This document shows positions 6,854 to 41,431 of a DNA stretch of 60,504 nt, piece by piece. Origin of the DNA: a bacterium (GTDB lineage: Bacteria > Verrucomicrobiota > Verrucomicrobiia > Verrucomicrobiales > Akkermansiaceae); the NCBI GenBank assembly GCA_018222765.1, contig JAAEZT010000023.1:1-60504 (forward strand). The letters are read 5' to 3'. Both the position numbers and the translations under genes were made by a program. The first letter of the stretch is position 1. Each line of letters begins with the position of its first letter. The notes under the pieces were generated by a model. That model worked only from the letters and a program-made list of their open reading frames with translations. It was not told the origin of the DNA and did not search any database.

Positions 6854-8050
6854 CTACCGAACCTCTCCGGGCCCGAAATCAAATCCAAACTGCAACCAAA
6901 CAGAATCCTCGGAACCCTCTTCAAGGTCGTCGTGGTTATACTGCAAGCGCACGCAAGATCTGGTATCCTTGTAGAGAGCAATTTCGCGGGTTAAGGCCAG
7001 GGAGAGTCGTTTCCGTTCCTCAGATGCGAAGGCATACTCCACTTCGCCCTCGTCGATTTCCGCTCCTGCTTCCGCTCCTTCGATCCATCCATATCGAAAA
7101 TCGCCAACCCATTCATCGGAGAAACGATACTTCGCAACCGCCATCACACTTGATTGCGAGGTTTTTCCACGATTGGACGCATTCTCAGCATGTTCCCACT
7201 CCACTTCCCTTAGGTAATATTCGAGACCAAGGGAGATTTCCTTCCCTCCTGATTCCAACCCTTTCTCCCTCCAGGTGTATGTATAGTCGGTCGAGTAAAT
7301 CGACGTATCATGCCCATAGCCGTTTTCTCCCCATGCACCATTCAAGCCAAAGCGGTGCTGGTGAAAATCAGTGTGATTGTATCCAAATAAAACACGGATG
7401 GTAGCGAGATCCCCGGAAAAATAAGCATTCTCGCTTTCTCCTCCATGCCCGTGCTCATCCTCATCACCATGGTCATCCTCATCACCATGGTCATCCTCAT
7501 CATCATGCTCACCGTCTTCTTCATGACCATGTCCATGTTCGACAGCCTCACCAAAGCTTCCGGAAATCGTTAAAAAACCTGTGTCGAATTCCCTCATCCA
7601 GGTGAGTTCTCCGCCATCAGTGCGCAGACCTTCCTCACCCAGAAATAATCCAGTCGAAAGATTGGCATCAACAAAATCCCAGCTGTGCAAGTGCTGATTA
7701 TTCTGACCTCCCAGTCGATTCAAGAATCGTCCGCCACGAATTTCAAAACCATCCACTCCCGCATACTTTAAAAAGCCCTCCTCCCACTCTGCCTCCATCT
7801 TATGGTCCGGGGTAGAAAAAGCATTCATGTTCACAAACCCGGAGATGTCATCGCCATAGTGCAGGTTCGTTCCCAAATCCAAACCCTGGAGCGCAAAGTT
7901 GTTATTCGGATCATGACCATGGGAGGCCAAGTCTTCGAGGTGATCCGCAGAACTCTCTCCCGCAATAGCCCGCATGTGCAATGTCGGCTCCAATTTCAAT
8001 TCTCCCAAAACCGGCAACGCCGCTAACACACTTAATCCTATGATTCGCAT
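6854..8050 (-). CDS. His/Asp-rich outer-membrane beta-barrel protein, probable zinc-regulated porin
   Basis: A protein of about 398 residues with a signal peptide (MRIIGLSVLAALPVLG), many alternating amphipathic strands and a C-terminus ending FGFDFGPGEVR, as expected for an outer-membrane barrel. An acidic, histidine-rich stretch in the middle (HGHGHEEDGEHDDED and onward) probably forms a metal-binding loop. An upstream ATG at 8068 would add six residues, but it lies inside a TGCAA-type palindrome that ends right at ATG 8050, so 8050 is preferred. The palindrome, shared with the tonB and znuD-like genes nearby, suggests derepression under metal starvation. 'Zinc-regulated outer-membrane porin' is inferred from context; strand topology and substrate are unproven. 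Confidence 0.72.
   Translation of the reverse strand: MRIIGLSVLAALPVLGELKLEPTLHMRAIAGESSADHLEDLASHGHDPNNNFALQGLDLGTNLHYGDDISGFVNMNAFSTPDHKMEAEWEEGFLKYAGVDGFEIRGGRFLNRLGGQNNQHLHSWDFVDANLSTGLFLGEEGLRTDGGELTWMREFDTGFLTISGSFGEAVEHGHGHEEDGEHDDEDDHGDEDDHGDEDEHGHGGESENAYFSGDLATIRVLFGYNHTDFHQHRFGLNGAWGENGYGHDTSIYSTDYTYTWREKGLESGGKEISLGLEYYLREVEWEHAENASNRGKTSQSSVMAVAKYRFSDEWVGDFRYGWIEGAEAGAEIDEGEVEYAFASEERKRLSLALTREIALYKDTRSCVRLQYNHDDLEEGSEDSVWLQFGFDFGPGEVR
7456..7512. repeat. 18-bp tandem repeat encoding the His/Asp-rich loop
   Basis: Two full copies of CATCCTCATCACCATGGT (7456-7473, 7474-7491) and a degenerate third lie inside the outer-membrane protein gene. On the coding strand each unit gives a six-residue D/H/E-rich repeat (DDHGDE-like). 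Because the unit is a multiple of three, copy-number change would lengthen or shorten the metal-binding loop without a frameshift. Confidence 0.85.
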
Positions 8051-8071
8051 AACGCAACTGGGTTGCATTTA
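8049..8071. promoter_or_regulatory. Candidate Zur/Fur-family operator, site 1
   Basis: The 15-bp core CGCAACTGGGTTGCA (8053-8067) is an imperfect inverted repeat inside a 23-bp partly symmetric block. It matches three other palindromes in the next 4.5 kb. It lies immediately upstream of the preferred ATG (8050) of the His-rich outer-membrane protein gene. Confidence 0.7.
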
Positions 8072-8284
8072 AGCCCTACAACGTCAAACCTGTATTTCAA
8101 AAAAAAGACTGGCATTACCTATTCGAAAATTCCGATCCGCTTGGAGAGATTTCCTTCAAACTACTTCCCCCCAACTCACGCAGTCCTGAAAACTTTCAAT
8201 AGCAGCTGTCCTCTTTACTTTATCTTTTCGCGACGAGTGTTCGTCTCCCTCGCCTTACTCATTGTGCTTTTTGAGGACAGCTTT

Positions 8285-9106
8285 TCAACGAAGTTGGAAA
8301 TTGAAAGGGATTGCTGTCGACGAGGCAATCGGTTGGCCTAGACCATTCATGGCCGCTCTAAAACGAAACTTCTTAGCTGCGCTGAGAGCAGCTAGATCCA
8401 GCGAGGGATCCCCGCTGCTTTGGCAAATTTTGCTGCCAAGAACGTCTCCCTTGGTTCCGATCGTCACCATCACGATCACCCGTCCCTGGATATTTTTTCG
8501 TTTTGCGCTTTTGGGGTAACTTGGAGTAGACCGCGAAATTAGGGTCGGGTTTTTGGCCTTTTTACTGGCCAAAGCTGCCCGTTGCCGGGCTATTCTTTTT
8601 TGCTCTTCCGCCTTTTTGTCCCTCAAACTCGGGCGGGTAGGTTTTGTAGCGAGAGCTTCTTGAGCGAAGGGATTTTCAAATTCCAGTTCCTCCAGGAATT
8701 CGATGGAAGTATGCTTGGGCGTGGGGATTGACACCAGATTCGGGGAGAAATGTGTTAGAGAAGGCGATGCTATCGCTTGTCTTTGAATCGGTGATGGGAG
8801 GGTAAGCACATTGCGGGAATGCACTTGAGGAGTCGGCTCCGCTTCTTTCGATTGGTCGTTGGTGCTTGTGTCGAGATAGGTCGTGAGAGCTGGTGAAGAC
8901 GGGGGACTAAGTTGGATCAGGTGCTGGGAGATGGCAATCGAAGCCAAGACGCCACAAAGAGCAACGAGAATTCCGAGAGCTCCGGAAAAAGAAGACAGGA
9001 GACGGGGAGGCAGCCCATTGCTTGAGGTCAACAGAGTAGGCCAAGCCAGATTCTCCGAAATGGGAGCCAGCTTGAGCTTCCGGGATCCTGGACGCTTCTT
9101 GATCAT
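8285..9106 (-). CDS. tonB: TonB-family energy transducer
   Basis: A 273-residue protein with one membrane anchor near the N-terminus (LLSSFSGALGILVALCGVLASIAI, about 36-60). A long Ser/Pro/Lys-rich periplasmic spacer with a Lys/Arg/Ala helix follows (KKAEEQKRIARQRAALASKKAK, about 165-190). The C-terminal TonB domain (about 197-273) has the conserved YPKSAKRKNIQGRVIVMVTI, GSKICQSSGDPSLDLAAL and AAKKFRF segments. It would pass proton-motive energy from ExbBD to outer-membrane receptors, most likely the ZnuD-like receptor at 12.6 kb. No exbB or exbD is in the window. The gene is divergent from the Fur-family regulator, and palindrome site 2 lies 24-38 bp upstream of its ATG. Confidence 0.88.
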   Translation of the reverse strand: MIKKRPGSRKLKLAPISENLAWPTLLTSSNGLPPRLLSSFSGALGILVALCGVLASIAISQHLIQLSPPSSPALTTYLDTSTNDQSKEAEPTPQVHSRNVLTLPSPIQRQAIASPSLTHFSPNLVSIPTPKHTSIEFLEELEFENPFAQEALATKPTRPSLRDKKAEEQKRIARQRAALASKKAKNPTLISRSTPSYPKSAKRKNIQGRVIVMVTIGTKGDVLGSKICQSSGDPSLDLAALSAAKKFRFRAAMNGLGQPIASSTAIPFNFQLR

Positions 9107-9126
9107 TGCCTGAACAAGAGATGGCG

Positions 9127-9149
9127 TTAATGCAAGTTACTTGCAAGAA
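9127..9149. promoter_or_regulatory. Candidate Zur/Fur-family operator, site 2
   Basis: The core TGCAAGTTACTTGCA (9131-9145) is a perfect palindrome around a central T. It lies 24 bp upstream of the tonB ATG on the minus strand and 81 bp upstream of the TTG of the Fur-family gene on the plus strand, so it could serve both divergent genes. On the tonB strand it is followed by ATTAA, a possible part of the -10 region. Confidence 0.75.
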
Positions 9150-9226
9150 AGAAATCAGAGATCGGACTGAATTCCTTTGGACGCGATGATCCTCCAGATA
9201 GGTGAAATTATCAACGCGCGAGAAAA

Positions 9227-9676
9227 TTGCCTTCGTTTTCCACCGGAGACAGTTCAAACTTCAGCCAAGTCGTGAAAAAACAACTCTCACTCTGCCGGGA
9301 AAACGGATTACGCATCACCTCCACACTCAAGGAGACCCTGAAGCTCCTCGAAAACGCCGCCGTTCCCATGTCCTTGGCCGAGCTTGAGGAAAAAATCACA
9401 AGTTGTAATCAGTCCACTATTTACCGTTCGGTCCAACGACTCAAAAAAATCGGAGTAATTAAACAACTCAATTTTGCCGAACAAGGGACAAAGTTCGCTC
9501 TGGCCACCAGAGAAGACAACGACGACTTTCTCATCTGCAAGGCCTGCGGAAAGGTTGAAGCGCTCGAATCCCCTTCCCCTCTTAAGGATCTGAAGAACCG
9601 GCTGATGCAAAAGACTGGCTTCCGTGGGCTCTCGCATGAGCTGGAATTTTACGGGGTTTGCCCGCAATGTGTTTAG
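9227..9676 (+). CDS. zur: Fur-family transcriptional regulator, probable Zur
   Basis: A metalloregulator of 149 residues from TTG 9227; GTG at 9272 would give 134 residues and also fits the family. The winged helix carries the family signatures RENGLRITSTLKETLKLLE and the recognition helix TIYRSVQRLKKIGVI. The C-terminal dimer and metal domain has two CxxC pairs (CKACGKVEALE and the terminal YGVCPQCV), the structural zinc site of Fur/Zur proteins, and LSHELEFYG supplies a conserved His/Glu. The His-rich stretch usually before the first CxxC is replaced by REDNDDF. Its neighbours are a ZnuD-like receptor, TonB and a His-rich porin, so zinc is the likeliest signal; Fe or Mn sensing is the alternative. 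The symbol rests on context. Confidence 0.8.
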   Translation: MPSFSTGDSSNFSQVVKKQLSLCRENGLRITSTLKETLKLLENAAVPMSLAELEEKITSCNQSTIYRSVQRLKKIGVIKQLNFAEQGTKFALATREDNDDFLICKACGKVEALESPSPLKDLKNRLMQKTGFRGLSHELEFYGVCPQCV

Positions 9677-10011
9677 AGGAAATCCTTCTTTATAGGCTGA
9701 GGTTGACTCATAGCAGGCGACCTTCCCTATGAAGAAGGGGATAGAAATTCGTTCTTCGTTTGCATCAATCTAGTTGAGCTTCTCGGTCACTCCCATCCGT
9801 CTTGGGAAATTTCATTCCCAGTCTCCCAACCTTTTGAACTACGACCGCCATGTGAATGGGGACTGACGCATTTTAAGATAGAACCAGCTCGCAAAGCACA
9901 CATCCTTTCCTGGAAGTCCAAGTTCTTGGGCCGCCGGTTAATACTAAGCACAAAAAGGGCGGGACTCTCATCGTCCCGCCCCTTTGCATAGCTATTCAGA
10001 AAATTAATCGA
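9677..10011. other. Intergenic region, no gene seen
   Basis: This stretch lies between the convergent ends of the Fur-family gene and the PEP-CTERM gene. It has no credible ORF on either strand, and no tRNA or repeat was recognised. The only clear element is the terminator hairpin at 9952-9985. Confidence 0.6.
9952..9985 (-). terminator. Rho-independent terminator of the PEP-CTERM gene
   Basis: A perfect nine-base-pair GC stem, GGGCGGGAC (9957-9965) with GTCCCGCCC (9973-9981), is separated by a seven-base loop. On the minus strand it is followed by a T-run (complement of 9952-9956). It lies 27 bp downstream of the stop at 10012. Confidence 0.88.
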
Positions 10012-10764
10012 CTAGCTGCGACGGCGGCGGGCAAGTAATCCAATTGCCGAAAACGCGACCAAGAGCGTCGATGATGGTTCGGGCACAACAACAAATGTGA
10101 AGGAAGAATTCGCAGTGTAGGGAACCGAGCCGGCTCCATCAGTGCGGGTTGCTGAGGCAGTGAAATCCAGAACGTATGTTCCCGCTTCGGTAAATGCCCA
10201 GTTCCGCTCTTCGTGTCCACCAGCGGGAAAAGTGAACGTATTCGTGGCTTCAGCCTCAGAAATTCCAAATTCGAAGGTTCCTCCATTGTTGAAGTAGAGA
10301 GAGAACTGTCCAGGTCCGGTCGATCCATTGAGAGTATATGAAACATCACTCCAAGTAACTCCGGCAGGCTGCTCAAGCTCCTCAGTCCCCAAGCCGAGAA
10401 TCACCGAGCCGACTCCGTCTGAGTCCTGAGAGATCAAGTAGAGAGTTGAGCCTTCGGTTGCTCCGGTGCCGCTGAGCAAAGCCTGATCCGTGCCAACGGG
10501 AACAACAACACTTTGATTAACTCTCACTTCCAGTTCGTCGGCTTCATATTCCTCATCATTTACAATGACCCCGCCGACAGTGGCGGTGTCATCGCCCTCC
10601 CCGAGGTGATAGCCAAACTCAAATTCTCCATCGTGGAGGCCTACGGCAAAGTCCCCGTGACCCGACGTAAACAGCGCCGCCGTGGCGCTACCGGAAAAAC
10701 CAAGAGTTGCAGATAAGCAAAGAAGATGAGCCAAAGACCGTGAATTAACTGGTGCTGTTTTCAT
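10012..10764 (-). CDS. Choice-of-anchor M domain protein with PEP-CTERM anchor
   Basis: A 250-residue exported protein. A signal peptide (MKTAPVNSRSLAHLLCLSATLGFSGSATA) is followed by one beta-rich domain resembling the actinobacterial surface-anchored repeat (TIGR03769, 'choice-of-anchor M'). The hallmark is GGHEERNWAFTEAGTYVLDFTA near residues 177-200. The C-terminus is a textbook PEP-CTERM signal: VPEPS, a hydrophobic helix, then RRRRS. An exosortase should process it; one is encoded at 24.9-25.9 kb. In Actinobacteria this domain family often accompanies metal ABC transporters, and here palindrome site 3 lies upstream beside other metal-uptake genes. A surface metal-binding or metal-presenting role is inferred. 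Confidence 0.85.
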   Translation of the reverse strand: MKTAPVNSRSLAHLLCLSATLGFSGSATAALFTSGHGDFAVGLHDGEFEFGYHLGEGDDTATVGGVIVNDEEYEADELEVRVNQSVVVPVGTDQALLSGTGATEGSTLYLISQDSDGVGSVILGLGTEELEQPAGVTWSDVSYTLNGSTGPGQFSLYFNNGGTFEFGISEAEATNTFTFPAGGHEERNWAFTEAGTYVLDFTASATRTDGAGSVPYTANSSFTFVVVPEPSSTLLVAFSAIGLLARRRRS

Positions 10765-10784
10765 TACGGGGCGGACCCTAGCTC

Positions 10785-10807
10785 TTAATGCAACTTAGTT
10801 GCAATAA
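10785..10807. promoter_or_regulatory. Candidate Zur/Fur-family operator, site 3
   Basis: The core TGCAACTTAGTTGCA (10789-10803) is a perfect palindrome around the central base within a longer A/T-flanked symmetric block. The nearer core edge is 24 bp upstream of the ATG of the PEP-CTERM protein, the same distance as site 2 from tonB. On the coding strand TTGTTA and TTAAGA flank it about 16 bp apart, so it could sit between -35 and -10 boxes. Confidence 0.78.
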
Positions 10808-10819
10808 CAAATTTGATTT

Positions 10820-12559
10820 TTATTCGGTAACGGTTTCCAGCCTGAAAAAAGAGGAATCTTGATCGGATGCCGGATTGAGAATGTCCCGCTTCATAAAAAG
10901 TGAGCGGGCATTTCCGGTGATAACCGGCCGCTCATGAAGGCGAAACGGCAGTCCGTCAGATCCGACCTCTCCCAAAGCAATGGGAAGTCCATTTCGTCCC
11001 CTCCCGGCCCCGATGATCTCCCACGATTCTAGGTCTTGTGAGAAAGAAGGGAAGAGAGCGGGAGCCTCATCGCTGAGGCTGTCCTTGTGAAGATCTCGCA
11101 TAAAGCTGAAACGGCCGATCCGGTCGCGGCTGATGTTCCCGATCACGGAACTTTCATCAAAAGTAACCGGATCCGCTCCCGCGACATCCAAGAGATATTC
11201 GAGCTGATTGCAGATCGTATCTCCGTCAAAGTTGCCGGCAGGATCGGAGAGGGCTCCAGCTGACAAACCATACGCCCGCTCGTAGCTGTCGGCCCATTCC
11301 ATATAGGAATGACCAGCGGACACATTTGCACCGCAACGCATCAATAATTGGCGACTCACTGAGACAGGGCTGTTGCCAGCATCGAATCCTATCGCGACGA
11401 AGGACAAGTGATGGATCCCTTGTTCCGTAAAATACAGTTTGCCGGTCCGCTGTCCGTTCGAAATGAACCAGGAATCACTGGCGTCAAGTCCATCCCTCGT
11501 GTCAACGAGAGTGGCGGAACTCAAGTCCATGGCGATTACTTCTCCGGGGCCTACGTGCTTCACCAGGGTAAGCGAGACCCCTCCTTCAAATGTCGGCAAA
11601 CTGGTAGCTGAGACCGCGGAAATACCCACCGTGTCGCTAGTCGCCGGATTGTTGAGGTCAAAAGTAAAGGGCATTTCAAAACCCGTGATTGTTGGATCGC
11701 TCGAGGGCGTCGTCGCATGTAGATAGCAGTGCTGCTCGGCGTATGTGACCGATACCCTCCTGTCGCGACAGAGGAGCGCCCAATCGCCCCTGTCCAAGGA
11801 AAGGCTTGCCTCCATCTCTGATAGGGCCCCTTCATGGGGCACTTGAAATGTCATGGTGAAGGGATGGGAGGTATCAGTTCCATCAACAAGCCTTCCGTAG
11901 ACTTCCATGTTTACCTCATAGACGCCCGGCTGCGTAAAAGCCCAGTTATAGTGTGTATGAGCCCCCGGCCGGAGGATCGTGATCTCGTCATCAACATCGA
12001 TGCCATCTGAGGTATCAAAGCCGATTTTTCGGGGAGTAAATCCGCTGCCGTCCTGCCATGTCCCCAAAAGGCCTCCCCGGTCCGGCCCCGAACCGGTCAT
12101 GGAAAGCAAACGCAAGTTGATGTTCCCGTTTCCTATCGGTGTGTAACTGTCGCCACTCCCGGTCAGAAAGGCGTTGTTCGGAATAAGAACCCGGAGGCCG
12201 AGGAATTGCGTACCTTCGACAAAGCCCTGCGGGATTCTCCAGATGGGAACTCCTGCCGGGAGGAAAAAATCGGTCGCGCTCCCCGAGACCTGGCGTGTCA
12301 GGGGCGGGAGGACGAATTCGAGAGCATCGGCCTCAATACGAACAACGTCATTGACACCAGGATTATCGAAGCTGGTACTCAGAGTATACGAGACTCCCGC
12401 CCACCAACCGGCCTCATCATCATACTCCATCTGAATCTCAGTATGCCCCCTGAGCAAGTCGAAGGAAGGAGACGAGGCCAAGGCCAAGGGGCTCAGGATA
12501 GGTGAAAGTATGGCGCTGGCGACGAGCGCACAGAGATTTTTATTGCAATCAATTTGCAT
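10820..12559 (-). CDS. Secreted protein with tandem choice-of-anchor M domains
   Basis: A protein of about 579 residues. The chosen start gives a signal peptide (MQIDCNKNLCALVASAILSPILSPLALASS); a longer frame to 12649 would put 30 unlikely residues before it. At least two beta-rich domains resemble the choice-of-anchor M family: HTHYNWAFTQPGVYEVNMEV in the first half and the divergent GKLYFTEQGIHHLSFVAIG in the second. A later segment, SYERAYGLSAGALSDPAGNFDGDTICNQLEYL, is a calcium-binding-like linker common in Verrucomicrobiota exported proteins. No PEP-CTERM or other anchor is seen at the C-terminus, unlike the smaller neighbour. It diverges from the ZnuD-like receptor across palindrome site 4. 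It may bind metal at the surface or in the periplasm (inference). Confidence 0.78.
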   Translation of the reverse strand: MQIDCNKNLCALVASAILSPILSPLALASSPSFDLLRGHTEIQMEYDDEAGWWAGVSYTLSTSFDNPGVNDVVRIEADALEFVLPPLTRQVSGSATDFFLPAGVPIWRIPQGFVEGTQFLGLRVLIPNNAFLTGSGDSYTPIGNGNINLRLLSMTGSGPDRGGLLGTWQDGSGFTPRKIGFDTSDGIDVDDEITILRPGAHTHYNWAFTQPGVYEVNMEVYGRLVDGTDTSHPFTMTFQVPHEGALSEMEASLSLDRGDWALLCRDRRVSVTYAEQHCYLHATTPSSDPTITGFEMPFTFDLNNPATSDTVGISAVSATSLPTFEGGVSLTLVKHVGPGEVIAMDLSSATLVDTRDGLDASDSWFISNGQRTGKLYFTEQGIHHLSFVAIGFDAGNSPVSVSRQLLMRCGANVSAGHSYMEWADSYERAYGLSAGALSDPAGNFDGDTICNQLEYLLDVAGADPVTFDESSVIGNISRDRIGRFSFMRDLHKDSLSDEAPALFPSFSQDLESWEIIGAGRGRNGLPIALGEVGSDGLPFRLHERPVITGNARSLFMKRDILNPASDQDSSFFRLETVTE

Positions 12560-12562
12560 TAG
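12540..12562. promoter_or_regulatory. Candidate Zur/Fur-family operator, site 4 (divergent promoter)
   Basis: The core TGCAATCAATTTGCA (12544-12558) is an inverted repeat between two divergent genes. It lies 20 bp upstream of the GTG of the TonB-dependent receptor and overlaps the ATG (12559) of the M-domain protein. One repressor bound here could silence both genes. Confidence 0.72.
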
Positions 12563-12578: not shown

Positions 12579-14852
12579 GTGAGGTTGAGACACAAGACTT
12601 TTTTATTTCTCTCCGCCGCAACCTTAATTTCCTTGGGCCAGGAGAGCAATCAGAAGGAGGACATTAACGAGTTGCCATCTGAGCAAAGCATGGGCCTGGA
12701 TGGGGTCTATGTTCTGGAAGATATTCAAGTAGTCGCTTTTTCCGAGGAGGACGCGAATTCCGGCTCAATCATGGGCGATTTCTTTGGAGGCGATACGGGA
12801 CTCTCTTTTGGAAGTGGCTTTTCATCCACCATGGGGGGAGAACGACTTCAGCGAATCTTGAGACCAACTCTAGGAGATACCCTCGCGGGCCAACCCGGAG
12901 TAACTTCAAGCTCGTACTCTTCTGGAGCGACTAGGCCGATCATTCGGGGCTTGGATGGTTTTAGGGTGGCCACCCAGATCGATGGACTCGGAACGATGGA
13001 CCTCGGACCTGAAAGTCCCGACCACGGGGTGGCCATCGACCCTCTCATTGCGAAGTCCATCGAGATTCATCGGGGCCCGTCGGCTTTGCGCTTTGGAAGC
13101 GGGGCGATTGGTGGTGCGGTCAACGCCATTACCGGCATCCGACCGACCTTGATCCCGGAAGGGGATTGGGAAGCGACCTTGACGACTGGCTACAATACCC
13201 AAGGGGACGGGAAACATGCCAAACTCGGCGCCAAGGTTGCAGAAGGTTTATGGGCTTTCAGCTTCTTCACCAGTCAGCATGAATCGGGCGACACTTCCAT
13301 CCCGGGCCGGGCATGGACGCAGGAGTACGAAGACGTGATTCAGCCCCGAACATTTAATGATGGTCCTATTTTCCTCTCAAATCCAACAAAAACTCTACCC
13401 AACTCTTATCATGATTCAGCGACATATTCAGTCGGAGCAAGCTTTGGAGTCCCTGATTCGGTCGAGTTTGGACTTTCGCTTACCCGATTCGATTCAGACT
13501 ACGGGATTCCTTATTTCTATGATGGAACCGAGACTGGCAGGCCATTCGGACAATCACATACGGAGTCCGAACTCAGCCGTTTCGATACTGACTTTAGCTA
13601 TCTCCCGCAAGGTGGTTGGGGACCATTCAGTAAATTAACAGCCCGGCTCGCGAAGGGATGGTACGACCGGGACGAGAAGTTCGAAGGTCTGAATCTAGGC
13701 GACATAGAATTGGACGAGGGCACCAATTTTACCGGGATCGCATTTGAACGTGATGCCACGGAGGCTCGATTTGAACTGCACAACGGAAATCGTGATTCTA
13801 CGCTTCACGGGATAACGGGAACTCACTTCGAGAAGAGTCGTCTCCACGCTCGACGGTTCACCCTTCAGGTCGCCGGAACGGACGATACACTTCTGAGGCA
13901 AGAAACAGCTGCAATTTATTCCACGCAAAAGTTATCGGGGGAGGAATGGAGTCTCGAACTTGGAGTCCGTGGAGATTTTGGAGACGTCTCACGAACAGAT
14001 CCAGGCAACGCTCTTGTCGATGAGCGAACAAATACTTTCTCGCAATCGATGTCTTTAGGATGGGATACCGACCGAATCCCAGGCCTGGTGCGATTCGGTG
14101 CAAAATTGACCACATCTCTCACGGAGAGAGCTCCCTCAGCGGTGGAGCGCTACGCCTTTTGGGACAATGAATCGCTTGGCAACATCATTATCGGCGGTGA
14201 CGTCGCAGCGGTCTTTTTGGATGACATCGATGGCCCGCTCGATAATGAAAAGGCAAAACATATTGAGCTCTCCTTTGCGGCAGATTGGGGCTGGGGAAGC
14301 GCGGTTCTAACAGGATATGAAACCGGTTTCGACGACTTCATCTTTCTGGAACCCAGGCCCGACCTCGGATTCGAGAACACCGCAGTCTACGTCGCGAGAG
14401 ACGCCAGGATTCGAGGAATCGAAGCGATGACGAGATTCTCGCTGTGGGAGTCAAAAGACCTGGAACAAAAACTAGAATTGGAACTGTCGGGTGACTGGAT
14501 GGAGAGCCGGGACCTTGAGAGGAGACAGGAGCTTCCCCGCATGCCAACCGCAAAGATATCAAGCATGCTGACTTACCAAATGCCATCGTGGGATTTTCAC
14601 CTCGAGCTCAGGCGAAGCTTTGGAAGTGGGAGCACCCCGCTGGAGCCGATTCCTGAGTTTTCGACCTCACCTTACACCCTTCTGAACGCAGGAGCCACGT
14701 GGCAACCCGCGTGGGCAGATGACGCCCTCACGATTTCCCTGCGCGGCACTAACCTGCTGAATGAAGAAATCCGCGAGCACACCTCCTTTCGAAAAGAAAC
14801 CTCTCCTCAGCCCGGAAGAGGGATGAGTGTGGAGCTCGAATGGACTTTCTAA
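12579..14852 (+). CDS. ZnuD-like TonB-dependent outer-membrane receptor
   Basis: A 757-residue receptor from GTG 12579, chosen because it begins the signal peptide (VRLRHKTFLFLSAATLISLGQ); an upstream ATG at 12510 would cross the operator. The plug domain has TLGDTLAGQPGV, ATRPIIRGLDGFRV, then SPDHGVAIDPLIAKSIEIHRGPSALRFGSGAIGGAVNAI. This 'SRPxIRGLDGxRV ... SPDHAxxxDP' pattern is characteristic of the ZnuD zinc-receptor subfamily. A 22-strand-type barrel follows, ending ELEWTF with the usual terminal Phe. It should import zinc or a zinc complex across the outer membrane with the TonB at 8.3-9.1 kb. Palindrome site 4 lies directly upstream. The usual znuABC inner-membrane transporter is not in the window. 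Confidence 0.9.
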   Translation: MRLRHKTFLFLSAATLISLGQESNQKEDINELPSEQSMGLDGVYVLEDIQVVAFSEEDANSGSIMGDFFGGDTGLSFGSGFSSTMGGERLQRILRPTLGDTLAGQPGVTSSSYSSGATRPIIRGLDGFRVATQIDGLGTMDLGPESPDHGVAIDPLIAKSIEIHRGPSALRFGSGAIGGAVNAITGIRPTLIPEGDWEATLTTGYNTQGDGKHAKLGAKVAEGLWAFSFFTSQHESGDTSIPGRAWTQEYEDVIQPRTFNDGPIFLSNPTKTLPNSYHDSATYSVGASFGVPDSVEFGLSLTRFDSDYGIPYFYDGTETGRPFGQSHTESELSRFDTDFSYLPQGGWGPFSKLTARLAKGWYDRDEKFEGLNLGDIELDEGTNFTGIAFERDATEARFELHNGNRDSTLHGITGTHFEKSRLHARRFTLQVAGTDDTLLRQETAAIYSTQKLSGEEWSLELGVRGDFGDVSRTDPGNALVDERTNTFSQSMSLGWDTDRIPGLVRFGAKLTTSLTERAPSAVERYAFWDNESLGNIIIGGDVAAVFLDDIDGPLDNEKAKHIELSFAADWGWGSAVLTGYETGFDDFIFLEPRPDLGFENTAVYVARDARIRGIEAMTRFSLWESKDLEQKLELELSGDWMESRDLERRQELPRMPTAKISSMLTYQMPSWDFHLELRRSFGSGSTPLEPIPEFSTSPYTLLNAGATWQPAWADDALTISLRGTNLLNEEIREHTSFRKETSPQPGRGMSVELEWTF

Positions 14853-39411: not shown

Positions 39412-40355
39412 TTCAAGCCAAATATCTGATGTTTCAATCGGTTCATCACATAAGAAGGCTGTAAAAAACCACCTAATCCCAGCCTTAGGATCCCACCGAC
39501 CAAATCCCCTCGTGCTCTTGCAAAACCTGCACCTCTGTAAAGCGCCTTTGCATAAATTTTCCGCGCCCTATTAATTCTTCCTAAAACCGAAACCGAATTC
39601 CACCTCTTTAGAAATTCATCACGGTCAGGTTCCCCTACTCCTCTTCGCCGCGCTCTTAGACACTCCCGCACCCATTCAAATTGCATTCGCGTTCTCATGA
39701 AGCTTGACGTCACTGCTGACTCTCCATGAATCCGATACTTTACCAGTACCTCAGGCTGTGCCAAAACTAGGTGCCCTGCCTCTGCAATTCTATTCCATAA
39801 ATCAATATCGTCTGCAGGCCAAAACCGACCTCTAAACTGAAGGTCTGTATCCCTGACTATTTCCGCCCGCAAAATGACACATGGGCAAAATAACCCGAAA
39901 GGTTCATCGCCGCTGAGGTAGTCATCCAACCTAGGTCTGTCCAACAAGTCTAAACGACCTTTTCCCATGTAGGCATCGTTCTCCCCTAAGTACTCTACCA
40001 ATCCTGAAGAACAAACCAGTTCCCTATTTTCGTCTAAAAAAGATATCTGACGCTCAATTCGCTCCGGATAGGCTACGTCATCGGCATCCTGAATGAGATA
40101 AAAGTCTGCGTCATTTTCAAGAAATGCCTCATTTAATACCGCGGCTTTTCCTCTATTTTCAGCATGCCTGACAATGATAACTTTTCCACTCCTCTCCAGA
40201 TCTCCTATCGATTTCACCGATCCGTCGGTTGATCCATCATCCAAAACAATCAATTGGTCAGCCGGTCGAGTCTGATGAAGAATGGACTCAACTGATTCTC
40301 TAAGAAATTCCCCTCCGTTATAGTTCGGAATAAAGACAGTTATTTTGGGATGCAT
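39408..40355 (-). CDS. Glycosyltransferase family 2 protein
   Basis: A 315-residue GT-A enzyme. Conserved segments are ITVFIPNYNGGEFLRESVESIL, LIVLDDGSTDGSVKSI, GKAAVLNEAFLENDADFYLIQDADDVAYPERIERQISFL (the DADD metal motif, about 91-95) and GRFWPADDIDLWNRIAEAGHLVLAQPEVLVKYRIHGES with the acceptor-side EDxD-like element. It belongs to the common repeat-unit-building GT2 group (rhamnosyl- or galactosyl-like). Its stop overlaps the next gene by 4 bp. Confidence 0.92.
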   Translation of the reverse strand: MHPKITVFIPNYNGGEFLRESVESILHQTRPADQLIVLDDGSTDGSVKSIGDLERSGKVIIVRHAENRGKAAVLNEAFLENDADFYLIQDADDVAYPERIERQISFLDENRELVCSSGLVEYLGENDAYMGKGRLDLLDRPRLDDYLSGDEPFGLFCPCVILRAEIVRDTDLQFRGRFWPADDIDLWNRIAEAGHLVLAQPEVLVKYRIHGESAVTSSFMRTRMQFEWVRECLRARRRGVGEPDRDEFLKRWNSVSVLGRINRARKIYAKALYRGAGFARARGDLVGGILRLGLGGFLQPSYVMNRLKHQIFGLK

Positions 40356-40369
40356 GAACTCCTTGAGTG

Positions 40370-41431
40370 CTACTTTCCTAATCGCTCCCTGAAGTACTTT
40401 CGCCCCGGGACTTCAACTGCCTGATAAAGAACCCATGCCAATACAACAGAGCCTACAAGTGTGGTCCCTATGTATGCTCCTTTCACAAGAAAATCTGCAC
40501 TCTCAATTTTGACGTTTAAGCCCTTTTCCAAAACCACCTTGGAATAACGTTGCACACCATCATGAAGAAGATAGACGCCAAAACTAATCTCCCCTCCCAA
40601 CACCCATTTTTTCCCAGCAATCATCGATCTCGCGCCAGGTTCTCGATCTCGATCCCCCAAAAGAACGATCACAGTGCCCGCGCATAAGCTCATCAGAAGC
40701 CACTCGGAAAACGCCCAACCTGAGAGCACTGGAAAAAAATGACCTAAAGTTGATCCAGCCAATAGAACCAACATGGCCAATGACACCCGATGTTTGACTT
40801 TAATCAACACCTTACGGGTTAAGAATAACTGACCTAAAACCATACCCAATATGAACTCCCATATTCTCATCAAGGGAAACCGATGCGCGCAATAAAAGTC
40901 GCTCGGATCCCAAAAAACCATAGACGCAGTCATTGAGAAAAAGAATAGAAGGAGCAACCAAATACTACTTCTTCTCTGAATGGCGACGAGAATTGGAAAT
41001 GCTGCATAGAAAAAGAACTCAACACCCAGAGTCCAACCAGGTCCATTGAATCTTCCATTGGAAAAATCAAACCAAGACTGCTGCATCAACAAAGTGAGCA
41101 ACAGTGACTCAATCCTGTTCCCGCTCTCAAAACCCGGGGAAAACCAATCGATCGGAAAAGTAAATATAAGGCACAGGAGATAAAGTGGGTAGATCCTCGC
41201 AAATCGATTCACCGCATACTCCCGAATCGTCCACTCTCGATTAAAATAAACAACATTCAGGATAAAGCCACTCAGGACAAAAAAGCATACAACCCCAAAA
41301 TGTCCAAATCCAACCAGAACACCTGATACTATATCTTGTTTTTCGAGCCAGCCTACTCGCTGGCCCCCGTGGCAGACGACCACAAGTAAGGCCAAAATGG
41401 CCCGTAGCCCCGTCAATGAATCTAGCTTCAT
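40370..41431 (-). CDS. Acyltransferase 3 family membrane protein
   Basis: A 353-residue protein with about ten membrane segments. Family signatures are LDSLTGLRAILALLVVVCHGGQ (catalytic-type His in the first segment), VCFFVLSGFILNVVYFN and FARIYPLYLL. Members of this family (OafA/ExoZ type) add O-acetyl or other acyl groups to polysaccharides at the inner membrane. It lies between GT2 and Wzy-like genes, consistent with modification of the repeat unit. A second family member is at 47.8-48.9 kb. Confidence 0.93.
   Translation of the reverse strand: MKLDSLTGLRAILALLVVVCHGGQRVGWLEKQDIVSGVLVGFGHFGVVCFFVLSGFILNVVYFNREWTIREYAVNRFARIYPLYLLCLIFTFPIDWFSPGFESGNRIESLLLTLLMQQSWFDFSNGRFNGPGWTLGVEFFFYAAFPILVAIQRRSSIWLLLLFFFSMTASMVFWDPSDFYCAHRFPLMRIWEFILGMVLGQLFLTRKVLIKVKHRVSLAMLVLLAGSTLGHFFPVLSGWAFSEWLLMSLCAGTVIVLLGDRDREPGARSMIAGKKWVLGGEISFGVYLLHDGVQRYSKVVLEKGLNVKIESADFLVKGAYIGTTLVGSVVLAWVLYQAVEVPGRKYFRERLGK

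Follow-up and report, generated by a model that had tools for sequence, protein, structure and literature searches.

The window analyzed here is a whole stretch of 60,504 nucleotides from a bacterium of the Akkermansiaceae (contig JAAEZT010000023.1). It holds a 15-bp palindromic core, TGCAA-N5-TTGCA, in four copies within 4.5 kb: at 8053–8067 (with one mismatch), 9131–9145, 10789–10803 and 12544–12558. This palindrome, a candidate operator for a zinc-responsive Fur-family repressor of the Zur type, is the subject of the present analysis. The flanks prolong the symmetry of the core to TAAYGCAA-N5-TTGCRTTA. The extended sites are as follows (G, L and C numbers are our handles for genomes, loci and contigs).

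8050..8070, no strand: operator 1, TAACGCAACTGGGTTGCATTT; 1 mismatch to the family consensus; overlaps the start of the gene for a His-rich outer-membrane protein
9128..9148, no strand: operator 2, TAATGCAAGTTACTTGCAAGA; 2 mismatches; between the divergent tonB and Fur-family genes, likewise in locus L071 of G031
10786..10806, no strand: operator 3, TAATGCAACTTAGTTGCAATA; 1 mismatch; upstream of a PEP-CTERM/choice-of-anchor-M gene, likewise in L071 and L072
12541..12561, no strand: operator 4, TATTGCAATCAATTTGCATTA; 1 mismatch; between the divergent M-domain and TonB-dependent receptor genes

The exact core occurs three times in the window against 0.12 expected, and none of 100 shuffles reached three. 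Once one mismatch is allowed, the 15-mer by itself says little: six matches stand against 2.6 expected, and six of 100 shuffles reached six. The extended consensus, at up to two mismatches, finds exactly the four sites where 0.06 would be expected; it was refined after the sites of the window and of relatives had been seen, so this figure is no blind test. Two further one-mismatch 15-mers, at 39783–39797 and 40540–40554, have no support from the extended consensus.

The genes around the four sites are listed below.

6854..8050, minus strand: HisOMP, a His/Asp-rich predicted outer-membrane protein; begins with MRIIG at 8050 or at an upstream ATG, 8068
8285..9106, minus strand: tonB, a TonB-type energy coupler; Pfam TonB_C, 73 bits
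9272..9676, plus strand: FurW, a Fur-family paralogue; 134 residues from GTG (149 residues from TTG at 9227); Pfam FUR, 63.4 bits
10012..10764, minus strand: choice-of-anchor-M domain protein (M-domain protein) with a PEP-CTERM tail; NCBIfam NF038134, 85.1 bits, above the cut-off of 55; Pfam PEP-CTERM
10820..12559, minus strand: second M-domain protein; NF038134, 67.9 bits, and TIGR03769, 54 bits, both above their cut-offs
12579..14852, plus strand: TonB-dependent receptor; Pfam plug and barrel; NCBIfam ZnuD, 151.5 bits, below the cut-off of 950

The distance from site to start codon is 24 bp for tonB (ATG at 9106) and 24 bp for the PEP-CTERM gene (ATG at 10764). The 8053 site lies 2 bp from the possible HisOMP ATG at 8050 and contains part of the alternative ATG at 8068. 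The ATG of the M-domain gene (12559) overlaps with the 12544 site, which is 20 bp away from the likely GTG start of the receptor (12579). The probable GTG start of furW, at 9272, is 126 bp from operator 2. Scans for promoter-like and terminator-like sequences gave no more than was found in shuffles. An earlier note on this DNA had claimed the four cores and the two 24-bp distances, and we find them all in place; the palindrome also resembles a Fur-family operator, as the note had proposed.

HisOMP, whose outer-membrane location is predicted, has no match in Pfam or NCBIfam; relatives of it adjoin the operator in L049 and L253. The receptor can be called ZnuD-like only, with ZnuD as the best-scoring named model. 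The M-domain proteins match the model group TIGR03769/TIGR03772/TIGR03773. The ZepA motif H-X2-9-H-F/Y-H is absent from both of them and from HisOMP. The arrangement of M-domain gene, site and receptor gene recurs in locus L056 of G082.

Sites elsewhere in the genome and in relatives

The assembly of the same genome (4.33 Mb, 87 contigs) contains eight exact 15-mers, compared to none for a reversed control. Three are in the window, two lie side by side at C75:65200/65226, and three fall within unrelated coding genes. A strict 21-mer pattern at up to two mismatches gives seven sites, namely the C75 site with 0 mismatches, the four window sites, and two within coding genes. After the perfect site at C75:65197 and the second core copy at 65226, the genes for X199, a COG0523/CobW GTPase and a MerC-like protein start. 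The site at C84:13761 precedes znuA, which is followed by X143, znuC (ATP-binding cassette (ABC) ATPase) and znuB (ABC-3 permease). The ATPase and the permease score best on zinc Azt models, under the cut-offs, and by family the operon appears to encode a zinc-type ABC importer. The second ZnuA-family gene, on C65, has no site among those found in the genome. Neither X199 nor X143 gave a family match, and several relatives have X199 grouped with the MerC-like protein and COG0523 close to the operator; the stretches concerned here are L031 5237–5836 and 6860–7522 and L030 6699–7130.

In a sample of 145 genomes of the family, the strict pattern at up to two mismatches was found in 101 genomes, with 230 sites in total against 37 for the reversed control. 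The region upstream of znuA provides a test whose starting point is a gene and not a site. In each genome that allowed it, some 400 bp in front of the best znuA were searched with a degenerate pattern at up to three mismatches; a few regions are shorter than 430 bp at contig ends. Genus g3, which is probably Akkermansia, contributes 18 of its 19 genomes to the test; the other 120 genomes lie outside it. The seven genomes omitted are G003 (region past the contig end), G107 (not among the matches listed), G103 (no match), and G057, G109, G097 and G110 (weak match only). Outside g3, a site is present in 87 of the 120 regions; dinucleotide shuffles gave 0.6 and the reversed pattern gave 0. None of the 18 regions of g3 has a site at up to three mismatches. 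Likewise, no site was seen in ten control regions, which lie upstream of second, lower-scoring (32–34 % identity) ZnuA-family matches outside g3; the second strong match of G112 was excluded.

The genes near the sites of relatives encode HisOMP, the X199/COG0523/MerC group, FeoB-like proteins, TonB receptors, and ZnuD with an M-domain protein. A HisI (PRA-CH) gene stands beside COG0523 near the operator, and PEP-CTERM, ZepA-like proteins with a three-His motif adjoin the operator in L058 and L068. Genes of these kinds lie at or near the site in 19 of 30 loci of a first family set and in 15 of 20 loci of a second; kinds were assigned by BLAST to the genome's own proteins, by family matches, or by eye for His-rich proteins, at distances of up to about 400 bp and with some starts uncertain. 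The second set was chosen by site quality among the matches listed without loci, and known znuA places were excluded. Records of Luteolibacter, Haloferula, Rubritalea and Roseibacillus are kin (among the best 80 of 268), and the named relatives put the genome with uncultured Akkermansiaceae/Verrucomicrobiales. Computation establishes the sites, the gene families and their conservation across genera.

His-rich barrel-like proteins are encoded near the operator in three genomes (L060 606–1457, L062 1562–2404 and L066 1437–2423). FeoB-like proteins are encoded near it in L255, L267, L272 and L370, with the L370 gene ending ahead of the site. Those of L255 and L272 were scanned and have FeoB_N and Gate domains. 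The FeoB-like proteins may be metal importers distinct from FeoB.

Beyond the family, we used a class sample of 141 genomes, of which 21 are from the family. A site at up to one mismatch is present in 17 of the 141, own genome included. Of the 28 sites that are not in the own genome, 25 are covered by twenty class stretches, and 14 of the 20 contain genes of the same kinds. In locus L353 of G212, two sites precede a Fur-family gene. The motif occurs in nine of 14 class genomes with a gene of the C21 type, the candidate regulator described below (E≤1e-25), compared to eight of 127 without one (Fisher p 8e-7, with a cut-off set after the list was known and a test that ignores kinship). In three genomes outside the family, prepilin-like (FTLVELL) genes stand beside the operator and are followed by choice-of-anchor-M genes (L360 3316–4026, L364 779–1519 and L370 1517–2239).

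The Fur-family genes

The genome has five Fur-family genes. In a tree, a well supported branch (96/95) separates FurW, the gene on contig C21 and their kin (the Zur clade) from the genes on C3, C65 and C55, which have very long branches of their own; of the 22 inner branches of the tree, ten are open. On sequence features and gene neighbors, these three genes were rejected as cognate regulator. C3 is without C-terminal Cys pairs, C65 (C65:43875–44213, L010) adjoins sufC/sufB, and C55 (C55:951–1295, L011) adjoins katG, the neighbors being named by eye. Because of these features and settings, the three look like iron, Fe–S and peroxide regulators.

The C21-type gene (own copy at C21:15986–16414) is found in 107 of the 145 family genomes (E≤1e-45); of the 74 named loci that could be tested, 61 have it directly after ruvB. 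The C21 protein matches Pfam FUR with 43.7 bits, above the cut-off of 23.1, and by profile it matches solved structures of the Fur family, including Zur. There is no curated Zur model among its seven NCBIfam matches at E≤0.001; the best is a Fur model at 39.3 bits (cut-off 220). The four-Cys structural zinc site of the C21 type is made of Cys95, Cys98 and Cys136, present in 81 of 81 proteins, and Cys139, present in 79. His89 and Cys108 are kept in all 81 C21-type proteins and six other clade members aligned, and His111 in 86 of these 87. Based on this conservation and on a hidden Markov model (HMM) alignment to structure 3mwm, which we take to be ScZur, these three residues are the presumed sensing ligands. 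The same alignment showed no conserved Cys in the C21 type at the canonical hinge M-site (ScZur C79/H87 type). The ScZur M-site residues are C79/H87 (PMC11077047).

All 19 genomes of g3 are without a match to the C21-type gene, two of them by deduction from beyond the matches listed. Thus g3 lacks both this gene and, in the 18 regions examined, the znuA site. Among the 120 genomes that do not belong to g3, ten have no clade member at E≤1e-15. G010, G069, G139 and G127 (g10/g13, at least 94 % complete) have no clade member and no znuA site at up to three mismatches; in G004 and G017 all Fur matches are distant, and a znuA site is likewise absent. The association between a clade member (E≤1e-15) and a znuA site has p 4e-9 over all 138 genomes, kinship ignored. 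A Zur-clade gene adjoins znuA in G015 and the HisOMP gene in G005 and G029. A search for an operator variant in g6, g15, g2 and G109 (diverged Zur-clade gene) revealed no common 8-5-8 palindrome among ten loci.

FurW shares 36 % identity with the C21 protein. It is 95 % conserved in G031 and G138. A near-identical FurW is found in three of the 145 family genomes; one more has it at 53 %. Its start is probably the GTG at 9272, because the longer reading holds a TGA in G031 and G138, where the open frame begins at that GTG. FurW retains the Fur domain, the four structural Cys, Cys51 and the conserved arginine of the helix-turn-helix. His89, Cys108 and His111 are absent in three of three FurW sequences. 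It misses the curated Zur model (33.5 bits, cut-off 167), and its best model is Fur (55.9 bits, cut-off 220). The ratio of nonsynonymous to synonymous substitution rates (dN/dS) across the three genomes is 0.09–0.14 for FurW and 0.14–0.26 for the C21 gene, with few changes each. FurW therefore does not have the look of a decaying gene and is apparently maintained by purifying selection.

Weighing the readings

We read the palindrome, with a probability of roughly 0.8, as a Zur-type operator of this Verrucomicrobiota lineage, with the ruvB-linked C21 protein as the cognate repressor and FurW as a diverged second copy inside the regulon. The earlier note had proposed a zinc regulon and had suggested looking for the motif at other zinc genes. 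It does precede the znuA-znuC-znuB and COG0523 operons of the own genome and znuA in most relatives, so the refuting condition set by the note, a motif missing at such genes, does not apply; this supports the zinc-type character. The note had also named the Fur-family protein at 9.2 kb, FurW, as the Zur behind the motif. This part is not well supported, since it is the C21-type gene that tracks the motif, and FurW, with its lost presumed ligands, is found in so few of the genomes that have it. The cognate repressor is more likely the C21-type gene elsewhere in the genome than FurW.

With plentiful zinc, a zinc-loaded Zur dimer would occupy the sites, each placed at a start codon or close to one. 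Bound Zur would block the TonB-dependent receptor, its TonB, the two secreted M-domain proteins and the His-rich outer-membrane protein, together with the Znu/Azt-type ABC importer and the COG0523 GTPase operon. When zinc is scarce, these genes would be expressed. Binding, repression, zinc as the co-repressor and the identity of the repressor are what we infer from the sites and their neighbors. Ordinary Zur repression by the C21-type protein seems most likely, with FurW either reading these sites as well or acting as a zinc-blind modifier.

A number of results weigh against this interpretation. A site is missing from 33 of the 120 znuA regions at up to three mismatches. The degenerate pattern was composed after the relatives' sites were known. 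G001, G005, G015, G018 and G029 have only a diverged clade member (40–48 % identity) and no znuA site. Conversely, G068 (92 % complete), G054 (89 %), G130 (78 %) and G140 (81 %) have a znuA site and no clade member at E≤1e-15. Outside g3, the association of the two gives only p 0.026, again with kinship ignored. The znuA genes of g3 are distant (30–42 % identity), and some may not be orthologues. No gene of the kinds named above is near the site in 11 of 30 and five of 20 family loci and in six of 20 class loci. In the own genome, the strict 21-mer at up to three mismatches gives 14 sites against nine for the control, and two of the seven sites at up to two mismatches fall within unrelated coding genes. 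The own znuA site is weak, with two mismatches to the degenerate consensus and three to the strict one. The solute-binding protein of the C84 operon scores slightly higher on a manganese model (184.5 bits) than on zinc AztC (179.4 bits), with none above cut-off, and the window receptor is far under the ZnuD cut-off.

It is possible, though doubtful, that FurW itself is the Zur that reads the sites, alone or with the C21-type protein. Its gene is inside the cluster with an operator between it and tonB, its Fur domain, four structural Cys and helix-turn-helix arginine are kept, its low dN/dS suggests maintenance, and G109, G005, G015 and G029 have diverged members of its clade close to zinc-type genes. 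Against this stand the three FurW genomes compared to 101 with the motif, the absence of the three residues kept in 86–87 of the 87 other clade members, and G082, which has the M-domain/site/receptor arrangement and whose best FurW match (40 % identity) is its C21-type gene. A tentative alternative role for FurW is that of a zinc-blind Zur paralogue that binds the same operators, or pairs with the C21-type Zur, regardless of zinc. Such a FurW, with its DNA-binding half and structural zinc site retained, would put a built-in brake on the regulon or, by competing, alter the shape of the zinc response.

A nickel regulon under a Nur-like repressor is improbable. The PDB matches include structure 3eyy, presumably Nur of S. 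coelicolor. The Streptomyces Nur-box consensus, tTGCaa-N5-ttGCAA, has the same core, matched by eye (PMC3919588). The targets, however, are znuA/aztC-type importers, the COG0523 GTPase, HisI, and ZepA-like and ZnuD-like proteins, and no nickel gene was recognized behind the sites looked at, where no search was made by nickel-gene name and many neighbors fall outside the family-library scans. Control by manganese or iron through a Fur/Mur-type protein would account for the manganese score of the ZnuA-family protein and for the FeoB-like genes near the site in some relatives. We consider it unlikely: published work ties HisI paralogues with COG0523, as well as ZepA and anchored-repeat surface clusters, to Zur (PMC2770081, PMC10957091, PMC6711530), and the three other Fur-family genes of the genome are candidates for iron, Fe–S and peroxide. 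That the palindromes arose by chance, or belong to a functionless repeat element, might be suggested by the window count of the 15-mer with one mismatch allowed, which scarcely exceeds chance, and by the three of eight exact genomic copies within coding genes. The recurrence of position and gene content over many genera, above all in the znuA test, makes this explanation negligible, and chance palindromes are ruled out by that test.

The operator and the candidate regulator give a concrete starting point for zinc control in Verrucomicrobiota. Further zinc genes may be found by the site alone, given the repeated presence close to it of X199, His-rich barrels, and MerC-like and FeoB-like proteins. 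The lack of both regulator and znuA sites in g3 raises the question of how zinc is controlled there. FurW is a naturally occurring example of a metal sensor still in use although its sensing site may be gone.

Known systems

Zur regulons are established in Proteobacteria, Firmicutes, Actinobacteria and Cyanobacteria (PMC6103462, PMC2770081), and HisI paralogues and COG0523 belong to them (PMC2770081). The words Verrucomicrobi- and Planctomycet- are absent from the main text of the Zur review PMC6103462. Among the matches listed in the open-licence literature, no Zur regulon of Verrucomicrobiota is described, and the only site of this lineage is one palindrome near zepA of Luteolibacter yonseiensis, which was likened to clostridial sites (PMC10957091). 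Within this literature, the operator and regulator for the phylum are the new part, while Zur regulons as such are well known.

The system described here shares with known Zur regulons a Fur-family protein, a palindromic operator, a znuABC-type importer, a COG0523 GTPase, a HisI paralogue and a TonB-dependent receptor as a target. The operator of E. coli is TRWNAYRWTATAWYRTNWCA (PMC6103462), compared to TAAYGCAA-N5-TTGCRTTA here. The canonical hinge M-site Cys is absent from the C21 type. A Zur without the usual hinge M-site is also reported for Synechococcus (PMC11077047; see also PMC9337993); the two are compared here at the level of the Fur family. The Nur box of Streptomyces coelicolor has the same core and spacing and serves a nickel regulon, whereas the target genes here are of zinc type (PMC3919588).

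The Luteolibacter zepA system comes from the same broad lineage and likewise has a PEP-CTERM secreted protein, zinc-binding in that case, and a nearby Fur-family gene (PMC10957091). The M-domain proteins of the window differ from ZepA in having no histidine motif, which the relatives' proteins in L058 and L068 do have. The anchored-repeat cluster of Corynebacterium diphtheriae also combines surface proteins with an ABC importer and is controlled by Zur (PMC6711530); the M-domain proteins of the window match the same model group. C. diphtheriae is Gram-positive and its proteins are sortase-anchored, whereas here PEP-CTERM or plain secretion is combined with a TonB receptor.

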